Virus record (IMG/VR): IMGVR_UViG_3300048011_000648
Coordinates: 1-27,000 of that record
Length of the DNA stretch: 27,000 nucleotides
Strand: one strand, 5' to 3'
Origin: a virus
The position numbers were made by a program, and so were the translations under genes. The notes beneath the pieces were generated by a model. That model did no database searches, was not told where the DNA came from, and worked only from the letters and a program-made list of their open reading frames with translations. Within the stretch, counting starts at the first letter, position 1. Each line of letters starts with the position of its first letter. Below, in pieces: positions 420 through 21,497 of the stretch.

Positions 420-427
420 CAAAAATA
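420..427 (-). promoter_or_regulatory. Bacteroidetes-type -7 box, leftward promoter
   Basis: Read on the minus strand the bases are TATTTTTG followed by C, matching TAnnTTTG. The box ends 20 bases before the ATG of the winged-helix gene. No TTG was found 17-23 bases upstream. It lies only 17 bases from the opposite-strand box at 445-452, so the two promoters overlap. Confidence 0.55.
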
Positions 428-444
428 CGAAAAACATTTTTTGG

Positions 445-452
445 TATCTTTG
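445..452 (+). promoter_or_regulatory. Bacteroidetes-type -7 box for the small-protein operon
   Basis: The bases are TATCTTTG followed by C, an exact TAnnTTTG match, 18 bases before the ATG at 471. No TTG lies 17-23 bases upstream. It would drive the rightward operon that begins at 471. The same TATCTTTGC string recurs before the gene at 5316, which supports a real promoter. Confidence 0.65.
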
Positions 453-470
453 CTGTATTACAATCTAGCT

Positions 471-632
471 ATGGCAAGAGAGAAGAAAAAACGAAAAGGA
501 AATAAGATTTGCGCATCGGGTATAGCTTGGGCAAAAAGAACTTTTGACACATATCCATCAGCATATGCGAATATGGCTGCAAGCAAATACTGTAAAGACC
601 CTAACTATGCAAAAAAAAGTAAAAAAAAGTAA
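471..632 (+). CDS. Small basic Cys-pair protein (53 aa), first gene of late operon
   Basis: The ATG at 471 was chosen because the longer reading frame would begin with a TTG inside the promoter. The protein has 53 residues, 16 of them Lys or Arg and only three acidic. Basic tails at both ends flank a conserved-looking core, WAKRTFDTYPSAYANMAAS (residues 20-38), bracketed by Cys14 and Cys41 (YCKDPNYAKK). I know this core pattern from small uncharacterised proteins of other phages, and no function is established to my knowledge. It opens the rightward operon just after the 445 box, and its end overlaps the next gene by 26 bases across two runs of eight A. Binding to nucleic acid or a metal is a guess from composition. 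Confidence 0.75.
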   Translation: MAREKKKRKGNKICASGIAWAKRTFDTYPSAYANMAASKYCKDPNYAKKSKKK

Positions 633-735
633 AAAGCTTTCTCCATCGCAAATGAAGATAGCTAGACTAGCTCCACCGTTTGATAAGATAACAGGAGCAG
701 ATTTCAAAAAATTAAGAAAAAATAAAAAAGGATAA
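607..735 (+). CDS. Small Lys-rich protein (42 aa)
   Basis: The ATG at 607 gives a 42-residue protein. A Lys-rich head (QKKVKKSKK) is followed by LSPSQMKIARLAPPFDKIT (residues 11-29) and GADFKKLRKNKKG. Thirteen residues are Lys and two are Arg. The core (LSPSQMKIAR, FDKITGADF.KLR) recurs, from memory, in small phage proteins of unknown role. The gene begins inside the previous one in a +1 frame, so the two share 26 bases with two A8 runs. The next gene starts two bases after its stop. Real status is supported by that tiling and by the non-repetitive core. An in-frame ATG further upstream exists but would lie deep within the previous gene. Confidence 0.65.
   Translation: MQKKVKKSKKLSPSQMKIARLAPPFDKITGADFKKLRKNKKG
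611..628 (+). repeat. Tandem A8GT units in the gene overlap
   Basis: Eight A, GT, eight A, GT: two direct copies of a 10-base unit covering 611-630. The unit encodes the Lys-rich tail of the upstream gene in one frame and the Lys-rich head of the downstream gene in another. Runs of eight A are classic slippage sites for polymerase and ribosome. Confidence 0.7.
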
Positions 736-737
736 TC

Positions 738-824
738 ATGCCATACGGAGGAAAAATCAAGTACACGCTTAAGTCAAAGAAGAAAAAGAAAACAGCTGCT
801 AAGAAAAAAGCTAAAAAGAAATAA
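738..824 (+). CDS. Tiny protamine-like protein (28 aa, half lysine)
   Basis: This 28-residue gene fits exactly between neighbours: two bases after the stop at 735 and two bases before the ATG at 827. It begins MPYGGKIKYTLKSK and ends with lysine runs and KKTAAKKKAKKK. Fourteen of 28 residues are lysine and none is acidic. This resembles the tails of histone H1-like proteins and protamines, which neutralise DNA charge. The start MPYGGK is reminiscent of other short phage proteins. Given its size, the evidence that it is translated is the exact tiling in the operon and the ATG context. Function is not known; binding to packaged DNA is an inference. Confidence 0.6.
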   Translation: MPYGGKIKYTLKSKKKKKTAAKKKAKKK

Positions 825-826
825 TT

Positions 827-1144
827 ATGCCAGATTACGAAAAATACGGATTCAGAAACACTGTTGTTGATAGACTTATTAATAGACCTGTTTTTAATGC
901 AAATAAAATGCCTACTAAAAGAGTTGCTCAAGCAAGAAACTTAGAACAGGAGGAGAATCTAAGGAGTTTCTCTCAAACCTTAAATGTACCTGTATCAGAG
1001 ACAAGAACGAATCTTGGCGATAATAGCGTTATGACATATGCAACTGGAGTAGTTGGTTCTGGCATAAAAGCCCTGTTAAAGTTAGCTGGAAAAAATTTAG
1101 CCAAAAAAGCAGCTGCAAAAGGAGCTTCAAAAGTAATGGAATAA
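827..1144 (+). CDS. Hypothetical protein, 105 aa
   Basis: I do not recognise this protein. The first half is polar with several Arg and Asn residues (YEKYGFRNTVVDRLINRPVF). The C-terminal third (about residues 66-105) is rich in Gly, Ala and Lys: GVVGSGIKALLKLAGKNLAK, followed by an alanine-lysine stretch. That stretch could form an amphipathic helix able to lie on a membrane or pack in a virion, but it has no clear transmembrane segment. The stop shares a base with the next start (TAATG at 1142-1146), implying coupled translation. Its place in the basic small-protein run suggests a virion or DNA-associated role, which is unproven. Confidence 0.7.
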   Translation: MPDYEKYGFRNTVVDRLINRPVFNANKMPTKRVAQARNLEQEENLRSFSQTLNVPVSETRTNLGDNSVMTYATGVVGSGIKALLKLAGKNLAKKAAAKGASKVME

Positions 1145-1494
1145 TGGATAAAGAATATAACAACATAGGATTTAAGAATAGTGATATAAGTTACATTACA
1201 TCAAAAAGTTCGTATAGTCTCAAAAACAGAATGACTAGAAATGGGCATGTGAATAAAACAAAATATAGAAGAGAAGTTATATCTACAAACCCAGATGGTT
1301 CTTCTGCAAGCAGAACAAAACTGAAAAATAAAAACGAAAAGAGTACTTCTGTTTATAAGCAAATAAACATTACGCCTGAAGGTGGTACTGTTTTAAAAAA
1401 TAGAAATGAAAGAAGCTCTGAGAGAAATATATCAAGAAGAGCTGCTGAAAGAAAAATAAAAAGACTTCAGCGCAGACAACGGAGAATGTTATAA
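1144..1494 (+). CDS. Basic hypothetical protein, 116 aa
   Basis: I do not recognise this protein. It is Arg/Lys-rich and low in hydrophobic residues. The C-terminus (about residues 88-116) is strongly basic and probably helical: RNISRRAAERKIKRLQRRQR. The middle holds two similar short stretches, ASRTKLKNKNEKS and GTVLKNRNERS, a possible small internal repeat. The start overlaps the upstream stop by one base and the stop overlaps the next start by one base, both as TAATG. Composition suggests a disordered, nucleic-acid-binding protein. No catalytic motif is visible. Confidence 0.7.
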   Translation: MDKEYNNIGFKNSDISYITSKSSYSLKNRMTRNGHVNKTKYRREVISTNPDGSSASRTKLKNKNEKSTSVYKQINITPEGGTVLKNRNERSSERNISRRAAERKIKRLQRRQRRML

Positions 1495-1748
1495 TGGGTG
1501 AACTTAAAAAATGGCGTGAAGAAAAATGGGTGAGAATAGGAGCCGATGGCTCTATCCTTGGGGCGTGTGGAACGAGCAAGGACAAGAAGAATCCAGACAG
1601 ATGTCTTCCACTAAAGAAAGCAAAAAGCATGAGCAAGTCCGAAAGAGCTGCAACTGCAAGAAAAAAGAAAAGGGAGGGCAGAAAAGGAAAAACTGTTGTT
1701 TCGAATACGAAAGCGGGAAAAGTAACTAAAAAATTTACAAAAAGATAA
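1494..1748 (+). CDS. Small basic Cys-pair protein (84 aa)
   Basis: The order of elements is W-x4-WVRIGADGSILGACGTSK (residues 7-29), then NPDRCLPLKKAKSMSKSERA, then a Lys/Arg-rich tail with KGKTVVSNTK. Cys25 and Cys37 lie in the core. The pattern W-V-x-I, CGTSK, P-x-x-C-x-P, K-x-x-S-M-S-K-S-E-R is one I know from small proteins in many phages and some large DNA viruses, without an established function. It overlaps both neighbours by one base as TAATG. The Cys pair and basic tail suggest a metal-stabilised nucleic-acid-binding protein, but that is inference. Confidence 0.75.
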   Translation: MGELKKWREEKWVRIGADGSILGACGTSKDKKNPDRCLPLKKAKSMSKSERAATARKKKREGRKGKTVVSNTKAGKVTKKFTKR

Positions 1749-2749
1749 TGGCAAACATAAGTTTATATCAATTGGATACCGCAATAGACGGTTTAGACAA
1801 AGTTATAGGGACTGATGGAACTACAGGAGCAGACCAAGGCAAGACCAAAAACTTTACCGTATCTGCTCTTGGAGCGCATATACTACATACTAGTACGCTT
1901 ACTGGGGGAACCAATGTAAATGGAAACCTAACAATTGAACAAGACCAAGCTGACGCCACGCTAACGATAATTTCAGACACAAGCAACATAACTCCTGGCG
2001 GAGAGCAACACAATCCATCTATACACTTTATACAAGATGGAGGAGCTCAAAATGCAGCTATAGGATTTAATATTATTGATGATACGGCTGGCGGGACTAT
2101 AGATGGAGCAGGAAACAGATTCTGGATTGTAAATTCTATGGAAGACAATCTTGGTGAAGGCGGTATTACCTTTGGAACAATAAACCAAGATGGATGGGAG
2201 AACGCTATAGCTAGGTTTATGATTCGTGGGGACGGGAAGGGATTGTTTGGTCATCCAAATGAAAACTACACAGGTAGCTTCGACTCTATGTTTGAAGTGT
2301 ATGACGATAGAACTGAAAACACAACTACTGATTTTTCAATGTCAGTTTATGGTTTAGTAGATGTTGCAGAGTATCCACCAGCTCAGGGAGCAGGAGGTAT
2401 TGTAAGTAGAATAAGAGTTTTAGACGGAGATACTGACAGTGGGGTATTCTCAATAGGACTTGTACCAGGGACAAACTCTTCGGAGATTATCACAAGCACC
2501 CCACTTGCTTTTTATGCTAATTCAGACATGAATACTCATAGTGCCACTGGATTTTCTGGCAATATAGGAACAAACGGAAATTGGAATATAAGCGACACTT
2601 TTTCTGCAACGCCACCATCTGAATTATCAGTTAAGGGAGATGTGGAAGTTACAGAGAGTGCTAACGGAGTGATATTAAAATCACCAAACGGAACTAGATA
2701 TAGAATTACAGTAGATGATTCGGGTAATTTAACAACTACAAGCTTATAA
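1748..2749 (+). CDS. Tail fibre / virion structural protein A
   Basis: The protein has 333 residues. Its N-terminus reads ISLYQLDT then DKVIGTDG then KNFTVSALG, within about residues 4-42. A closely similar start occurs in the protein encoded at 5316, so this looks like a shared virion-anchoring module. The middle is Gly-, Asn- and Thr-rich beta-type sequence typical of fibre shafts. The C-terminus (about 292-333) reads GDVEVTESANGVILKSPNG and ends YRITVDDSGNLTTTSL, a pattern known from phage fibre tips. It is embedded among small basic proteins and coupled to the one before by TAATG. A role in adsorption is inferred. No enzymatic motif is visible. Confidence 0.75.
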   Translation: MANISLYQLDTAIDGLDKVIGTDGTTGADQGKTKNFTVSALGAHILHTSTLTGGTNVNGNLTIEQDQADATLTIISDTSNITPGGEQHNPSIHFIQDGGAQNAAIGFNIIDDTAGGTIDGAGNRFWIVNSMEDNLGEGGITFGTINQDGWENAIARFMIRGDGKGLFGHPNENYTGSFDSMFEVYDDRTENTTTDFSMSVYGLVDVAEYPPAQGAGGIVSRIRVLDGDTDSGVFSIGLVPGTNSSEIITSTPLAFYANSDMNTHSATGFSGNIGTNGNWNISDTFSATPPSELSVKGDVEVTESANGVILKSPNGTRYRITVDDSGNLTTTSL

Positions 2750-2750
2750 T

Positions 2751-3041
2751 ATGGCAGATAAAAGTAAAATGGCGTGTAACAAGCCAAGACCTTCAGACAG
2801 AGCTGGAAAGAAAAAAATGGTTAAAGCCTGCCAAGGTGGAAAGGAAAAACTAATTCATTTTGGTGCGAAAGGCTATGGACATAACTACTCAGCTGCTGCT
2901 AGAAAGTCATTCAAAGCACGTCATAAATGTTCAAGTGCTACTAATAAACTAACTGCTCGTTATTGGGCTTGTAAGAATTTGTGGGCAGGTAAAGGCGGAA
3001 GCACCAAGTCTTCTCCAAAATCAAAAAGAGGTAAATACTAA
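2751..3041 (+). CDS. Small basic four-Cys protein (96 aa)
   Basis: The visible motif order is KPRPSDRAGKKKMVKAC, then LIHFGAKGYGHNYS (residues 34-47), then RKSFKARHKC (51-60), then LTARYWACKNLW (67-78), then a Lys/Ser tail. Cysteines are at 9, 27, 60 and 74. The R-x-S-F-x-A-R-H-x-C ... A-R-Y-W-x-C-x-x-W pattern is, from memory, widespread in phage proteins of unknown function and also in large DNA viruses. Four cysteines plus His36, His44 and His58 would allow a zinc site. The gene begins one base after the fibre gene's stop. I am sure of the family pattern but not of the function. Confidence 0.8.
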   Translation: MADKSKMACNKPRPSDRAGKKKMVKACQGGKEKLIHFGAKGYGHNYSAAARKSFKARHKCSSATNKLTARYWACKNLWAGKGGSTKSSPKSKRGKY

Positions 3042-3053
3042 AAACACACAATT

Positions 3054-3743
3054 ATGCCACCAGGAGATAAAAAGAAAAAACAAACAAATCAACAAACAAG
3101 CTCTAACATTCAAACAGCATTGTCTAACACTGCGTTAAGTTTTTTTAAAAGCGATAGTAGGAAAAATCCATATCTATCAAGTAGATTTAATACAGGTAAT
3201 GTCAATGTTTTTAACCCAATGAAAAACCAGGGACCGACACAAACAGGGTATACCTACTCTGTAAATGACGGTACAGGAACATCTAGAAGAGGTCAAAACA
3301 CCCATTATAATGAAGCTAAGTACAGACAAGACCAATCTCTAAAAAATTATTTTGGAGGTCCTAAAAAGTATGTAAAGGGTGCGGAAAAAGGAGCTAAAAG
3401 AGCAGCTTCTATTTCTTCTAATTTACAGAAAAGTATGTATGAGGCTTCTAAGCTTTTAGCTCAAGGAAGAGAAGAGGAAGCTGATTCTTTAGCGCAATCT
3501 GCTAAGAAAACAGCTTTTTATGAGCAATCAAAAGGTGGGTTTGGAGCTTCTGATGTGGCTAGATTACAAAACAGAAGCATAACTCGTATATCTGACGCAT
3601 ACTTTAATAATAGAACTAGCCAGCAAATAAGAAACTTGACTAAAGGTGTTTCTAAATTAACTTCTACTGCTAAAATTACTGCTCCTGACGCAAAAGAAAT
3701 AAACGCTTCTTTAAGAAGTTTAACATCTAGAAAGAGAAATTAA
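3054..3743 (+). CDS. Hypothetical virion-associated protein, 229 aa
   Basis: I do not recognise this protein. The N-terminus is Lys/Gln/Thr-rich (DKKKKQTNQQTSS), followed by a low-complexity region rich in Asn, Gly, Thr and Tyr up to about residue 90. From about 100 on it turns helical and alanine/lysine-rich (KGAEKGAKRAASISS). The C-terminal part (about 165-229) has a regular Ser/Thr/Leu pattern ending RSLTSRKRN. It has no signal peptide or membrane segment. Twelve bases separate it from the upstream gene and one base from the next. A disordered head plus helical tail would fit an injected or internal virion protein, but nothing shows this directly. Confidence 0.65.
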   Translation: MPPGDKKKKQTNQQTSSNIQTALSNTALSFFKSDSRKNPYLSSRFNTGNVNVFNPMKNQGPTQTGYTYSVNDGTGTSRRGQNTHYNEAKYRQDQSLKNYFGGPKKYVKGAEKGAKRAASISSNLQKSMYEASKLLAQGREEEADSLAQSAKKTAFYEQSKGGFGASDVARLQNRSITRISDAYFNNRTSQQIRNLTKGVSKLTSTAKITAPDAKEINASLRSLTSRKRN

Positions 3744-3744
3744 C

Positions 3745-3846
3745 ATGGGAAAATTTTTCGTAAATTTGGGACTTAAGATACAGGCTTTATGGAAGAAGTT
3801 TGTAGTAGGATACAATAAATGTATCGAAAAACTAAAGATAAAGTAA
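3745..3846 (+). CDS. Cationic amphipathic peptide (33 aa)
   Basis: This short gene tiles exactly between neighbours, starting one base after a stop and ending one base before the next ATG. The peptide begins MGKFFVNLGLKIQALWKKF and ends YNKCIEKLKIK. Hydrophobic residues fall at 4, 8, 12, 15, 19, 23, 27 and 30, a helical i+3/i+4 pattern along one face, with lysines at 3, 11, 17, 18, 25 and 29 elsewhere. There are eight lysines and one glutamate. This is the form of a membrane-active or coat-binding helix. It lies 0.4 kb upstream of the lysis genes. Function is unknown; lysis aid or virion peptide are both possible. Confidence 0.55.
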   Translation: MGKFFVNLGLKIQALWKKFVVGYNKCIEKLKIK

Positions 3847-3847
3847 A

Positions 3848-4003
3848 ATGGCTGATAAAGGACTAGGCGATACTATAGAGAGATTCACTACAGCTACTGG
3901 TGTGAAAAAGGTTGCTGAAACTATTTCAAAGAAAATGGGTAAACCTTGTGGTTGCGGAGAAAGACGTGACACACTTAACAGAATGTTTCCATATAAAAAA
4001 TAA
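3848..4003 (+). CDS. Small CxC protein (51 aa)
   Basis: The protein reads GLGDTIERFTTATGVKKVAE, then KPCGCGERRDTLNRMFPYKK. Cys34 and Cys36 form a CGC motif. I recall the combination of G-D-T-I-x-x-x-T-x-x-T-G-V-K-K, CGC-x-x-R and LN-x-x-F-P-Y from small proteins in diverse phages, with no established role. The gene starts one base after the previous stop, and its own stop shares a base with the next ATG (TAATG at 4001-4005). The CxC motif could bind a metal, alone or as a dimer, but that is a guess. Confidence 0.7.
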   Translation: MADKGLGDTIERFTTATGVKKVAETISKKMGKPCGCGERRDTLNRMFPYKK

Positions 4004-4248
4004 TGTTAAGTAGAACCGCTAAATATTACCGTGATAATCCTAAGGCTAGAAAAAAGCATAGGAAAACCTCTGCGAAGGCTCAGAAGAAAAAAGAAGCTGT
4101 TCGCAAAAGAGTTGAATGTAATTTATTTAATAGAAAAAACAAAAAGTCGAAAAAAGGAGATAAATTAGATTGCTCACACAAAGGCGGACGTTTGGTTCTG
4201 GAATCACAGAAGAAAAACAGAGCTAGAGGGGGTGGAAAAAAGAGATAA
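4003..4248 (+). CDS. Small basic Cys-pair protein (81 aa)
   Basis: By count 32 of the 81 residues are Lys or Arg and six are acidic. It opens with SRTAKYYRDNPKARKKHRK, continues through a long basic stretch to VECNLFNRKNKKSKKGDK, then LDCSHKGGRLVLESQKKNRA (residues 55-74) and a Gly/Lys tail. Cys39, Cys57 and His59 are the candidate metal ligands. The pattern Y-Y-R-x-N-P, E-x-N-x-x-N-R, G-D-K-x-D-x-S-H, K-x-N-R-x-R is one I know from many phages and some giant viruses; the function is not settled. It is joined to both neighbours by one-base TAATG overlaps. Nucleic-acid binding is likely from charge alone. Confidence 0.8.
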   Translation: MLSRTAKYYRDNPKARKKHRKTSAKAQKKKEAVRKRVECNLFNRKNKKSKKGDKLDCSHKGGRLVLESQKKNRARGGGKKR

Positions 4249-4430
4249 TGGATTTGGATAGTAAAATATCATTTTTTGCAGGATACGTATTTACGGCGGT
4301 ATCATCAATAAGCATTTTAGGGATAGTTCAGGCTGCTTTAATTGGTTTTGTTGGTGGTTTTTTTGGTCTTTTAGGAAAAGAGCTATATTATAGCTTAAAA
4401 GACAAAATTAAAAATGAGAAAGATAAATAA
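4248..4430 (+). CDS. Small membrane protein, holin-like
   Basis: This 60-residue protein has one long or two short transmembrane segments between about residues 8 and 42, the last part reading IVQAALIGFVGGFFGLLGKE, and a charged C-terminus ending KDKIKNEKDK. Small size, hydrophobic core and basic tail fit a holin. It lies directly before the endolysin, which starts 17 bases inside it, a typical lysis-cassette arrangement. It could also be an antiholin or spanin-associated protein, because a second membrane protein follows the endolysin. It is coupled to the upstream gene by TAATG. Confidence 0.6.
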   Translation: MDLDSKISFFAGYVFTAVSSISILGIVQAALIGFVGGFFGLLGKELYYSLKDKIKNEKDK

Positions 4431-4821
4431 AATAATTGTTCACTGCTCTGCAACACCAGAGGGGAGAAACGTATCTGCAGCTACTATTGATAAGTGGCAC
4501 AAGGAAAGAGGTTGGTCAGGTATTGGTTACCACTATGTAGTTAAACTAGACGGCTCTATTGAGTATGGTAGAATGGTGGATAAGGTTGGAGCTCATTGTA
4601 AAGGACACAACAAGTCATCTATTGGAATTTGCTACATAGGGGGTTGTGATTCTGACATGAAAGCCAAAGACACTAGAACACCTCAGCAGATAGCTAGTAT
4701 GCTAGAACTTATCAGAATATTAAAGAAACTGCATCCAGGCGTAGAGGTGTTTGGACATAGAGATTTCTCTACTAAAGAGTGCCCAAGCTTTGATGCTAAA
4801 AACGAATATTGCAATGCCTAA
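4414..4821 (+). CDS. N-acetylmuramoyl-L-alanine amidase (T7 lysozyme type endolysin)
   Basis: This 135-residue Amidase_2 protein should cleave the bond between N-acetylmuramic acid and L-alanine in peptidoglycan to lyse the host. The start IIVHCSATPEG supplies the first zinc ligand, His10. Tyr39 lies in GYHYVVKLDGS. HRDFSTKECPSFD supplies zinc ligands His115 and Cys123, with Lys121 beside them. These correspond to His17, Tyr46, His122, Lys128 and Cys130 of T7 lysozyme with a constant offset of seven. All catalytic positions are present. It has no signal peptide, so it needs a holin to reach the wall; membrane proteins flank it on both sides. Its start overlaps the upstream gene by 17 bases and its end overlaps the next by 8. 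Confidence 0.95.
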   Translation: MRKINKIIVHCSATPEGRNVSAATIDKWHKERGWSGIGYHYVVKLDGSIEYGRMVDKVGAHCKGHNKSSIGICYIGGCDSDMKAKDTRTPQQIASMLELIRILKKLHPGVEVFGHRDFSTKECPSFDAKNEYCNA

Positions 4822-5260
4822 GAAAAAATTTAAAGACACTAAAGTAGGTCAGTTTATACTTAAAAAGCTGCCTGGGTTTGTTGGAGATGTTTTGCCAGAC
4901 AAAGGTGTTTTGGGCGTTGTGAAGAATCTTATAGATAATGACCCAGAGGTAAGCCCAGAAGAAAAAGCTAAAATGCACGACGAGCTTGTTGAGCTTTATA
5001 GCCTTGAGGTTGCAGATAGGGACTCCGCAAGAAAGCGTGAAGTTGAAAAAGCAAAGACAGGAGGGTTTGACCTTATGTTCAACCTTACTGGCATTATAGG
5101 CCTTTTTGCTTTTGCTTTTATTATATACGCTATTGTATACCTTGAGGTTCCAGAAAACAACAAAGAAGTCTGGATACATCTTATTGGGATATGTGAGGGA
5201 ATTGTCCTTAGTATATTTGGGTATTTCTACGGGAGTGCAGTTCGGAATAATAAGGACTAG
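4814..5260 (+). CDS. Membrane protein, second holin candidate
   Basis: The ATG at 4814 is preferred; an earlier in-frame ATG at 4751 would overlap the endolysin by 71 bases and add residues unlike the family. From 4814 the protein has 148 residues. The N-terminal half is soluble and helical (LPGFVGDVLPDKGVLGVVKN, then SPEEKAKMHDELVELY and DRDSARKREVEKAK). Two hydrophobic segments follow at about 88-110 and 119-140, before a short charged end. This layout matches phage proteins annotated as holins of the three-helix type. It overlaps the endolysin end by eight bases. It could act as holin, antiholin or virion membrane protein. Confidence 0.65.
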   Translation: MPKKKFKDTKVGQFILKKLPGFVGDVLPDKGVLGVVKNLIDNDPEVSPEEKAKMHDELVELYSLEVADRDSARKREVEKAKTGGFDLMFNLTGIIGLFAFAFIIYAIVYLEVPENNKEVWIHLIGICEGIVLSIFGYFYGSAVRNNKD

Positions 5261-5287: not shown

Positions 5288-5295
5288 TATCTTTG
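5288..5295 (+). promoter_or_regulatory. Bacteroidetes-type -7 box for the fibre operon
   Basis: The bases are TATCTTTG followed by C, identical to the box at 445. It lies 20 bases before the ATG at 5316 in a 55-base gap. A TTTTTG at 5267-5272 lies upstream, but the gap of 15 bases is shorter than the usual 17-23. It would give the fibre genes their own transcript. Confidence 0.65.
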
Positions 5296-12389: not shown

Positions 12390-12397
12390 TATATTTG
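12390..12397 (+). promoter_or_regulatory. Bacteroidetes-type -7 box for the terminase-portal run
   Basis: The bases are TATATTTG followed by C, 19 bases before the ATG at 12417, in the 38-base gap after the fibre block. No TTG lies 17-23 bases upstream. Confidence 0.6.
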
Positions 12398-13302: not shown

Positions 13303-13860
13303 ATGAAATCACCGTATTACTTCATCATTAAACCTGTTGGAGATGAATACGTGAACGAGGTCGATATAGCTGGGAAAAAGATAATTGTAAATTCAAGTGT
13401 AGAAGACCACAAGCACGTAAATCGTCTTGGAGAAATAGTGCATATCCCTGGCAGATATAAAGGAAGTATATCGGTTGGGGATATCGTCATTGTACACCAT
13501 AATATATTCAGGATTTACTATGACATGAAGGGTAGGCCTAAAAAGTCACCAAACTTCTTCAAAGACGGTCTTTATTTTATTGATGAAAGTCAGTTTTATC
13601 TTTATCATAATGGAGATAGATGGAACTCTGTAGACAACTTCTGCTTTGTTAAACCTATCGACAAAGAAAATTCGTATCTTTATGAGGAGGGAGAAGAACT
13701 AAATACAGGCGTTTTGGTTTATGGTAATGAGAATCTGAGCAAACTAGGCGTTAGCGAGGGAGACAAAATAAACTTTACAAAAAACAGCGAATATCGTTTT
13801 GACGTAGATGGAAATATTGTGTATAGAATGAGGACAAATGATATATGCACATTATTATAG
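13303..13860 (+). CDS. Possible two-lobed GroES-like (co-chaperonin) protein
   Basis: The protein has 185 residues. Two stretches look like GroES barrels. The first (about residues 24-70) has LGEIVHIPG, then ISVGDIVIVHHNIFR, comparable to GEV-x-x-x-G ... VGD-x-V-I-F. The second (about 136-185) has GVLVYGNEN, then LGVSEGDKINFTKN, then YRMRTNDICTLL, like the VGD-x-V-x-F ... M-x-x-x-D-I-x-x-I end of GroES. Phages such as T4 encode a co-chaperonin that helps the host GroEL fold capsid protein. The gene sits just upstream of the terminase genes. Overall identity to GroES is low by eye, so this is a moderate call, with an unrelated beta-barrel structural protein as the alternative. Confidence 0.45.
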   Translation: MKSPYYFIIKPVGDEYVNEVDIAGKKIIVNSSVEDHKHVNRLGEIVHIPGRYKGSISVGDIVIVHHNIFRIYYDMKGRPKKSPNFFKDGLYFIDESQFYLYHNGDRWNSVDNFCFVKPIDKENSYLYEEGEELNTGVLVYGNENLSKLGVSEGDKINFTKNSEYRFDVDGNIVYRMRTNDICTLL

Positions 13861-20090: not shown

Positions 20091-21497
20091 ATGGCACAAT
20101 CAATTAATTTTGACGGAGCTGGAACTGGCACAGTAACAATTGGCGGTTCTACTTCACTAACACCTGCACCTGGCAAGTCTTTGCAAAACAGCAACTACTT
20201 GACTAATGCACAATATGACTTTGCTCAGCAATATCTACCTGATTTATATGAGCAAGAATTCGAGCGTTACGGAAATCGTTCTGTAGCTTCTTTCTTGCGT
20301 ATGGTAGGAGCTGAGATTCCTTCTTCTTCTGACTTAATCAAGTGGAGTGAGCAAGGAAGACTACACGTACAAGCTACTGGTTCAGTTACAGACGCATCTA
20401 ATATTGCGGTAACAGGACATAGCTTCCGTACAAACCAGACTATTATTATCTCTGGACCAAACGGTGTTCAAGCAAAAGCTCTTATTACAGATGCTTCTGC
20501 TGCTGACAGCATCGAAGTTGCTTTGTATCAAAACTTCAGCTTAGTAGAAGTTGCTTCAGGAGGAGACGTTTTATATACTGCAGATGACGCCGTAACAATC
20601 TTCGTCTATGGTTCTGAATTCCGTAAAGGAGAGAATGGCATGGATGGTTCTCTTGAAGCTGATTTCGAAGCTAAAGAAAACAACCCAATCATCATCAAAG
20701 ACAAATACGAAGTATCTGGTTCTGAAATGGCACACGTTGGGTGGGTAGAAGTATCTACTGAAAACGGAGCTTCTGGATACCTTTGGTATTTGAAATCAGA
20801 AAGCGAAACTCGCTTACGTTTCGAGGATTACCTTGAAACTTCAATGATTGAAGGTGAGCCTGCTGGAACTGGTTCTGGTGTAGCGGCACTTTCTGTTGAC
20901 TACAAAGGAACTAAAGGTCTTTTCTTCGAAGTATCAGAAAGCGGTAACGTTTCTTCTGGTACTATTGATTCTAGAGAAGATTTAGAAGCTTTAGCTAAAG
21001 TTCTTGATAAAGAAGGAGCTATTCAAGAAAACGTAATCTTTGCTAATCGTGCAACATCTTTTGATATTGACAAAGTATTAGCTGCTCAAAACAACTCTGG
21101 AGCTTCTACAGCTTCTTACGGTTTGTTTGATAACGATGAAGATATGGCCCTAAACCTTGGGTTTACAGGATTCCGTATCGGATATGACTTCTATAAGTCT
21201 GACTGGAAATATCTAAACGATGCTACTACTCGTGGTAATATCGGTGGTATTGATGGTATCGTTGTACCTGCTGGTACTACTACAGTATACGACCAAGTAC
21301 TTGGAGAGAACGCTAAGAGACCATTCTTACACGTTCGTTACCGAGTATCTCCAACTGAAGACAGAAAATACAAGTCTTGGGTTGTTGGTTCTGCTGGAGG
21401 AGCTATGACTAGCGATAAAGATAATATGGAAGTTCACTTCTTGTCAGAGCGTGCGCTTTGTACAATGGGAGCTAACAACTTTATCTTGATGCAATAA
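20091..21497 (+). CDS. Major capsid protein
   Basis: The protein has 468 residues. The N-terminal part holds YLPDLYEQEFERYGNRSVAS, then FLRMVGAEIPSSSDLIKWSE and QGRLHVQATG, a pattern I associate with HK97-fold major capsid proteins of Bacteroidetes phages. The last residues (FLSERALCTMGANNFILMQ) are typical of the end of such proteins. Codon use differs from neighbours: by my count 11 of 17 arginine codons are CGT, whereas AGA dominates elsewhere, and TTC is favoured over TTT. This is the usual sign of very high expression. It lies directly after the scaffold and is followed at once by a hairpin terminator, fitting the most abundant virion protein. Confidence 0.85.
   Translation: MAQSINFDGAGTGTVTIGGSTSLTPAPGKSLQNSNYLTNAQYDFAQQYLPDLYEQEFERYGNRSVASFLRMVGAEIPSSSDLIKWSEQGRLHVQATGSVTDASNIAVTGHSFRTNQTIIISGPNGVQAKALITDASAADSIEVALYQNFSLVEVASGGDVLYTADDAVTIFVYGSEFRKGENGMDGSLEADFEAKENNPIIIKDKYEVSGSEMAHVGWVEVSTENGASGYLWYLKSESETRLRFEDYLETSMIEGEPAGTGSGVAALSVDYKGTKGLFFEVSESGNVSSGTIDSREDLEALAKVLDKEGAIQENVIFANRATSFDIDKVLAAQNNSGASTASYGLFDNDEDMALNLGFTGFRIGYDFYKSDWKYLNDATTRGNIGGIDGIVVPAGTTTVYDQVLGENAKRPFLHVRYRVSPTEDRKYKSWVVGSAGGAMTSDKDNMEVHFLSERALCTMGANNFILMQ

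Follow-up and report, generated by a model that had tools for sequence, protein, structure and literature searches.

The virus record IMGVR_UViG_3300048011_000648 (IMG/VR), analysed here over its positions 1 to 27,000 (27 kb, hereafter the window), derives from a podovirus of Bacteroidota and carries at positions 471–4248 of the plus strand a run of very small, mostly basic genes. We propose that the conserved members of this run (g1, g6 and g8, and probably g2, g11 and g12) form a modular, co-inherited set of cationic proteins that works in the head interior in the manner of the internal proteins of phage T4, and we consider this, taken as a whole, the probable explanation of the run. Packing in the head is probable because several of the families stand next to one another in hundreds of unrelated viruses and are elsewhere fused to head-building proteins. 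The genes of the run are given below with their content of lysine and arginine (Lys/Arg) and the ratio of nonsynonymous to synonymous substitution (dN/dS) against close relatives.

471..632, plus strand: g1, 53 residues, 16 Lys/Arg; PSAYAN family; PHROG 27331 (1.1e-22); dN/dS 0.04
607..735, plus strand: g2, 42 residues, 15 Lys/Arg; 'KIARLAPPFDKITGADF' family; dN/dS 0.20
738..824, plus strand: g3, 28 residues, 14 Lys/Arg (half of the protein); confined to close relatives; dN/dS 0.10
827..1144, plus strand: g4, 105 residues, 17 Lys/Arg (16%); confined to close relatives; dN/dS 0.30
1144..1494, plus strand: g5, 116 residues, 30 Lys/Arg; confined to close relatives
1494..1748, plus strand: g6, 84 residues, 28 Lys/Arg; 'W.REKWVRI...CG...CLP' family; PHROG 23735 (5.3e-27); dN/dS 0.07
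1748..2749, plus strand: g7, 333 residues, acidic and fibre-like; breaks up the run and lies outside the kit
2751..3041, plus strand: g8, 96 residues, 26 Lys/Arg; DUF5754/Tlr6F-like domain; PHROG 7595; dN/dS 0.06
3054..3743, plus strand: g9, 229 residues, 39 Lys/Arg (17%); confined to close relatives; dN/dS 0.33
3745..3846, plus strand: g10, 33 residues, 8 Lys/Arg; 'WIQ..W.KF' family, which in other phages lies close to g11
3848..4003, plus strand: g11, 51 residues, 12 Lys/Arg; 'GLGDT...CGC..R...LN..FPY' family; dN/dS 0.06
4003..4248, plus strand: g12, 81 residues, 32 Lys/Arg (40%); 'KYYrDNPkArkK...RVE.N..NR...GD..D.SH' family; PHROG 6437 (3.8e-17); dN/dS 0.05

The region is thus tiled by eleven small open reading frames (ORFs) and the fibre-like g7, all on the plus strand. 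An earlier reading made from the sequence alone had described eleven genes separated by gaps of zero to twelve bases; the run itself stands and its largest gap is 12 bases, but neighbouring genes also overlap, by one base in several cases and by 26 bases between g1 and g2. The four Lys/Arg counts given in that reading (16 of 53, 15 of 42, 14 of 28 and 32 of 81) proved exact on recount. Lysine and arginine together make up 24–50% of nine of the eleven run proteins, the exceptions being g4 and g9, versus 4–16% of the 18 other window proteins counted. Comparison with close relatives gave dN/dS values of 0.04–0.10 for g1, g3, g6, g8, g11 and g12 and of 0.29–0.33 for g4, g9 and g10, while the only comparison sequence for g5 was an identical copy. 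These low values indicate that the ORFs of the run are true genes and not chance reading frames, and g1, g6, g8, g11 and g12 (0.04–0.07) are under strong purifying selection. Searches of single window proteins against Pfam, NCBIfam and PHROGs assigned no function.

Scans of IMG/VR revealed at least 460 relatives each for g1, g6 and g8 and 226 for g12, of which the best 80 of each were kept. The analysis covered 395 viral contig clusters, grouped on shared sequence rather than phylogeny, in which loci (L numbers below) are the best seed matches; expected counts assume uniform random placement, a simple model. Seven of the eleven genes (g1, g2, g6, g8, g10, g11 and g12) belong to families that recur beyond close relatives. 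Where g1 and g6 are both present, in 303 contig clusters, they lie within 1.5 kb of each other in 302 (99.5 expected) and on the same strand in all 303. Pairs within the same distance were found for g8 and g11 in 49 of 59 clusters (12.6 expected), for g12 and g11 in 27 of 37 (7.6 expected) and for g11 and g10 in 22 of 22, and at least three kit families occupy a 5-kb interval in 292 of the 395 clusters. Around control loci for the thymidylate synthase gene thyX, any kit family was present in 7 of 80 cases and two or more in 2 of 80. The association holds across lineages that differ in capsid, portal and terminase types: Pelagibacter phage HTVC106P has g6-like, g1, g2 and g8 genes inside about 1.2 kb, Prochlorococcus phage P-SCSP2 has g1, g6-like and DUF6321-like genes between the scaffold and major capsid genes, and phages C75C1 and 023Pt carry g1 and g6 together. 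Free g8 and g12 genes are present in Flavobacterium phage elemoA.

The sequence-only reading had suggested that the run holds a co-inherited kit and that scattered occurrence in relatives would speak against this. The kit genes are instead clustered on one strand in unrelated phages, far above chance and control, so that the kit idea survives. Its membership does not extend to all eleven genes, which is ruled out by the restriction of g3, g4, g5 and g9 to close relatives. The families are virus-restricted and nearly absent elsewhere: a g6 query found one relative in 84,980 cellular genomes, and g6 and g8 queries found none in plasmids. Deposited records leave some kit genes unannotated, among them g1 in phage 023Pt (L011 4996–5339) and g8 in Roseobacter phage SIO1 (24065–24298).

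Clusters of kit genes sit in head modules. Their nearest large neighbours, where recognised, are mostly the major capsid protein (MCP), the head maturation protease, the large terminase, the portal and GroEL. Kit genes lie no more than 3 kb from a SAR11-type MCP gene in 76 of 80 clusters, from a P-SCSP2-type capsid gene in 19 of 19 and from a P-SCSP2-type scaffold gene in 19 of 20, and other lineages place the same genes between scaffold and MCP or between MCP and head-completion genes. GroEL accounts for 8 of 110 neighbours of kit clusters in related phages.

The same domains are also joined covalently to head proteins and to each other, with 39 proteins bearing at least two kit domains. One protein (L359) combines Peptidase_S78 (E 5e-4, slightly below the cut-off) with DUF6321, g6 and g1, and a 988-residue protein (L347 8324–11287) combines Peptidase_S78_2, the XkdF-type prohead protease, with g6, g1 and a zeta-toxin-like domain; the domain content of the latter makes it a candidate head-packaged toxin. 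Aeromonas phage 2L372X gp101 consists of Peptidase_S78_2 and g8. Likewise, ICP1 Gp125, described as a predicted capsid protease (PMC9040626, PMC7567579), contains S78_2 at residues 36–160 followed by a g8 domain at 184–261 (65 bits). These S78/S78_2 (XkdF) proteases, of which Gp125 is an example, thus carry g8, g6 and g1 domains on the protease chain, whereas the domains are free-standing in the window. In the 1393-residue portal of cyanophage CL131 (gp012; L570 8800–12981), Phage_portal_3 is combined with g8 (70 bits, residues 523–604), an inorganic pyrophosphatase (InPase) domain and MuF. This portal is among the proteins identified by liquid chromatography–tandem mass spectrometry of purified CL131 virions (PMC6293099). 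No other direct evidence from virions was found, and this instance concerns a fusion polypeptide and not a free kit protein.

Several kit proteins in T4-like contigs begin with a peptide resembling the capsid-targeting sequence (CTS) of T4 (MK.[YF]...[FL][LI].E), for example MKNYFDFLKE, MKTFKQYLDE and MKSFTDYLNE; the exact T4 letters used for this comparison are what we take to be that peptide. Among 232 kit ORFs that have an N-terminal extension, 7 start in this way, compared with 39 among 10,000 other ORFs (Fisher p 7e-5); shuffling gives an expectation of 0.17. Rows of adjoining proteins with T4-like targeting N-termini, including DUF6267 and nucleotidyltransferase-like proteins, stand beside kit genes at L358 2689–10285 and L124 70–3513. 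At the other end of the chain, a C-terminal motif like RGCG.VM.NRRK or RG.GAA.KG is common to different small proteins encoded in a single genome, g1 and g6 among them (L093, L084, L088, L051/L081 and L313; for example L093 9887–10210 and 10213–10530); the motif looks like a docking tag.

Homology at the family level links the kit to domains that are already named. Window g8 itself scores 19.3 bits against DUF5754 (PF19058), below the Pfam gathering cut-off of 27.4, and 9 of 46 aligned members of its family match PF19058 (best 6.3e-15). Judged by these family-level matches, g8 is a distant member of DUF5754/Tlr6F. It also matches a domain embedded within PHROG 220, whose annotation reads 'minor head protein and DNA pilot'. 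Searched alone against Pfam, including DUF5872 (PF19197), window g1 and g6 returned no family at E up to 1. DUF5872 does score above its cut-off over the g1 and g6 stretches of the fusion relatives L359, L389, L397, L347 and L336, through which g1 corresponds to the N-terminal part of DUF5872 (about positions 1–48) and g6 to its second part. By this route g1 and g6 are distant members or parts of DUF5872 that are present here as separate genes. DUF6321 (PF19846), which other phages often encode next to g1 and g6 or fused to them, is absent from the window. The sequence-only reading was therefore right that the run contains cores shared by unrelated phages and large DNA viruses without a settled function, these being DUF5754/Tlr6F and DUF5872. 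Tlr6F/DUF5754 has been described as conserved among almost all polinton-like viruses, in many giant viruses and in some phages, with its function unexplained (PMC4642659), and has been reported without known function from polinton-like viruses, virophages and Megavirales (PMC4642659, PMC12220804). A haptophyte giant virus has been annotated with both DUF5872 and DUF5754 (PMC12085832).

The predicted g8 model (predicted local distance difference test, pLDDT, 79; predicted template modelling score, pTM, 0.68) consists of a beta hairpin followed by two helices. It matches viral models of XkdF, ICP1 ORF125 and a 1393-residue protein of CL131-portal length, as well as eukaryotic-virus proteins from Tunisvirus (E 1.3e-3) and Chloriridovirus (E 0.014, prob 1.0). 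Searches of the PDB by sequence profile returned nothing. Net charge per 100 residues is about +12 to +30 in the recurrent families and about +22 to +30 in those of g1, g2, g6, g8, g12 and DUF6321.

Two further relationships were considered for individual genes. A kinship of g2 with EF-hand-like proteins found at the corresponding position in other phages ('DANKDGKISREDF' in P-SCSP2 gp20) is at the level of a motif and not significant (i-E 2.7). For g12, a link to an HNH-like C-terminal domain from T4-like contigs likewise fell short of significance (E 1). Elsewhere, kit genes adjoin short, basic proteins whose EF-hand-like loop is canonical (L009 5168–5293, L382 10550–10750, L055 3190–3372 and L462 5676–5798); g2 may be a degenerate-loop version of these neighbours, a homology below significance. 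Small KKSKGG-type repeat proteins without family assignment also adjoin kit genes (L081 1780–1992, L066 10682–10951 and L069 6872–7075).

In the proposed mechanism, small cationic domains would be incorporated into the procapsid interior and retained alongside the packaged DNA. Podoviruses, the present phage among them, would produce them late, each as a small protein of its own; myoviruses and some siphoviruses would string these domains like beads on longer chains, together with the maturation protease, with the portal or with core-type proteins bearing a capsid-targeting peptide. We infer that this phage packages its free-standing kit proteins and that their Lys/Arg-rich surfaces contact DNA, where they could help to condense it or neutralise its charge, or could exit with it at ejection. 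The parts of this proposal are not equally secure. Location in the capsid interior is likely, and the placement in the procapsid that the sequence-only reading had raised is upheld indirectly by the head-module clusters, by the fusions to prohead proteases and to a virion-found portal, and by some T4-like targeting N-termini. For DNA condensation as the main job the chances are about even.

The closest functional parallel is provided by the T4 internal proteins IPI–IPIII, which are likewise small, basic, late (the window genes lie in the late region) and located in the head interior, and whose targeting peptide is resembled in some kit-bearing relatives. The T4 proteins are present at about 360 copies each and are sent to the prohead by short N-terminal peptides (PMC9026906). 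No sequence relation between the two groups was seen, and the kit families are conserved across unrelated phages, whereas the T4 internal proteins are poorly conserved (PMC9026906).

Several observations weigh against the proposed head-interior set. No CTS-like peptide was seen by inspection on the window's own proteins, and the CTS counts in relatives are small (7), with a near-identical N-terminus in 3 of the 7. A search of article texts found no mass-spectrometry evidence of any free-standing kit protein in virions. Fusion to a protease or portal puts a domain in the procapsid without showing that it is retained or binds DNA. DNA binding is argued from charge only, and no nucleic-acid-binding family (HU-, histone- or protamine-like) was found by Pfam/NCBIfam, PDB sequence or fold searches. 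Neither the g8 model (best E 2.8) nor the g1–g6 predicted model (pLDDT 81, pTM 0.50) matched a solved structure, and therefore no structural inference of DNA contact can be drawn.

Other roles were weighed against the head-interior reading. The domains could be components of a procapsid assembly core or loading adaptors that bind scaffold, coat or portal, and thus serve as interchangeable tags bringing the protease and other enzymes into the prohead, with any DNA contact incidental. Their shuffling onto proteases, the InPase/MuF portal and the zeta-toxin-like protein of L347 is consistent with such a role, as are the proximity of clusters to scaffold genes in P-SCSP2-type phages and the RGCG.VM.NRRK-like motif common to several proteins of one genome, which would be expected of a docking tag. 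However, the very high net charge of about +22 to +30 per 100 residues fits DNA neutralisation better, and many clusters are found in phages without any fusion; we regard adaptors as unlikely, if the strongest of the competing explanations.

Still less probable is that the proteins are packaged and then injected as effectors for DNA protection or host takeover, like T4 IPI and Alt. In T4 the internal proteins leave the head at ejection, and one of them, IPI, counteracts restriction (PMC9026906); CTS-like relatives of the kit adjoin CTS-bearing DUF6267 and nucleotidyltransferase-like proteins. Effectors of this kind would sit poorly with families conserved across phages of very different hosts, given that T4 internal proteins are not highly conserved (PMC9026906), and the extreme conservation of the kit (dN/dS 0.04–0.07) is unlike that of arms-race proteins. 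The run touches the lysis genes in this phage and in HTVC106P, which could reflect late proteins that never enter the virion and act in the cell on ribosomes, RNA or the host nucleoid, or that aid lysis. This is the least probable of the alternatives and very doubtful in view of their place in other lineages, where scaffold and MCP genes or MCP and head-completion genes flank them, and of the kit domains that are fused to procapsid proteases and to the portal detected in virions.

If the head-interior set is real, the clusters and fusions, above all those with prohead proteases and the virion-detected portal, give Tlr6F/DUF5754 and DUF5872 a concrete place, the procapsid interior, and a testable role. 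A broader and much more speculative proposal is that DUF5754/Tlr6F, DUF5872 and their partners are one ancient modular cationic capsid-interior system common to tailed phages and to the polinton-like and giant viruses of eukaryotes, which would serve across two virus realms as a general kit for the viral nucleoid or the procapsid core. We hold this doubtful; if true, it would account for the wide conservation of Tlr6F. The head-interior set predicts that many abundant marine phages carry internal cationic protein sets, and Lys/Arg-rich sets of this type tend to escape trypsin-based virion proteomics and gene callers.

The surroundings of the run in this phage are those of a late region. In its terminase the phage shares 64% identity with an uncultured podovirus and about 43% with the Flavobacterium elemo phages. 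The terminase, portal and structural genes lie further downstream, also on the plus strand. The neighbouring features are listed here.

445..452, plus strand: possible but weak promoter of the run, TATCTTTG, matching the Bacteroidota -7 element TAnnTTTG, 18 bases 5' of the g1 start
4248..4430, plus strand: small transmembrane (TM) protein, first of the lysis genes; called from sequence, without a family match
4414..4821, plus strand: N-acetylmuramoyl-L-alanine amidase (endolysin); PHROG 822, 6.4e-62
4814..5260, plus strand: putative holin-like or membrane protein, last of the lysis cassette
20091..21497, plus strand: virion structural protein; PHROG 13704, 1.4e-97; the kit lies upstream in the same orientation

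The product of 20091..21497 is the probable MCP of this phage. TAnnTTTG, which we take to be the Bacteroidota -7 consensus, occurs 44 times in the window (34.6 expected) and is not enriched. Copies lie 18–20 bases before gene starts at 420–427 (minus), 445–452 (plus), 5288–5295 (plus) and 12390–12397 (plus), the sites at 420 and 445 forming a divergent pair, and these are consistent with Bacteroidota-type promoters. A search for a sigma-70 promoter revealed nothing convincing. A GroES-like co-chaperonin gene is located at window positions 13303–13860, within the head module.

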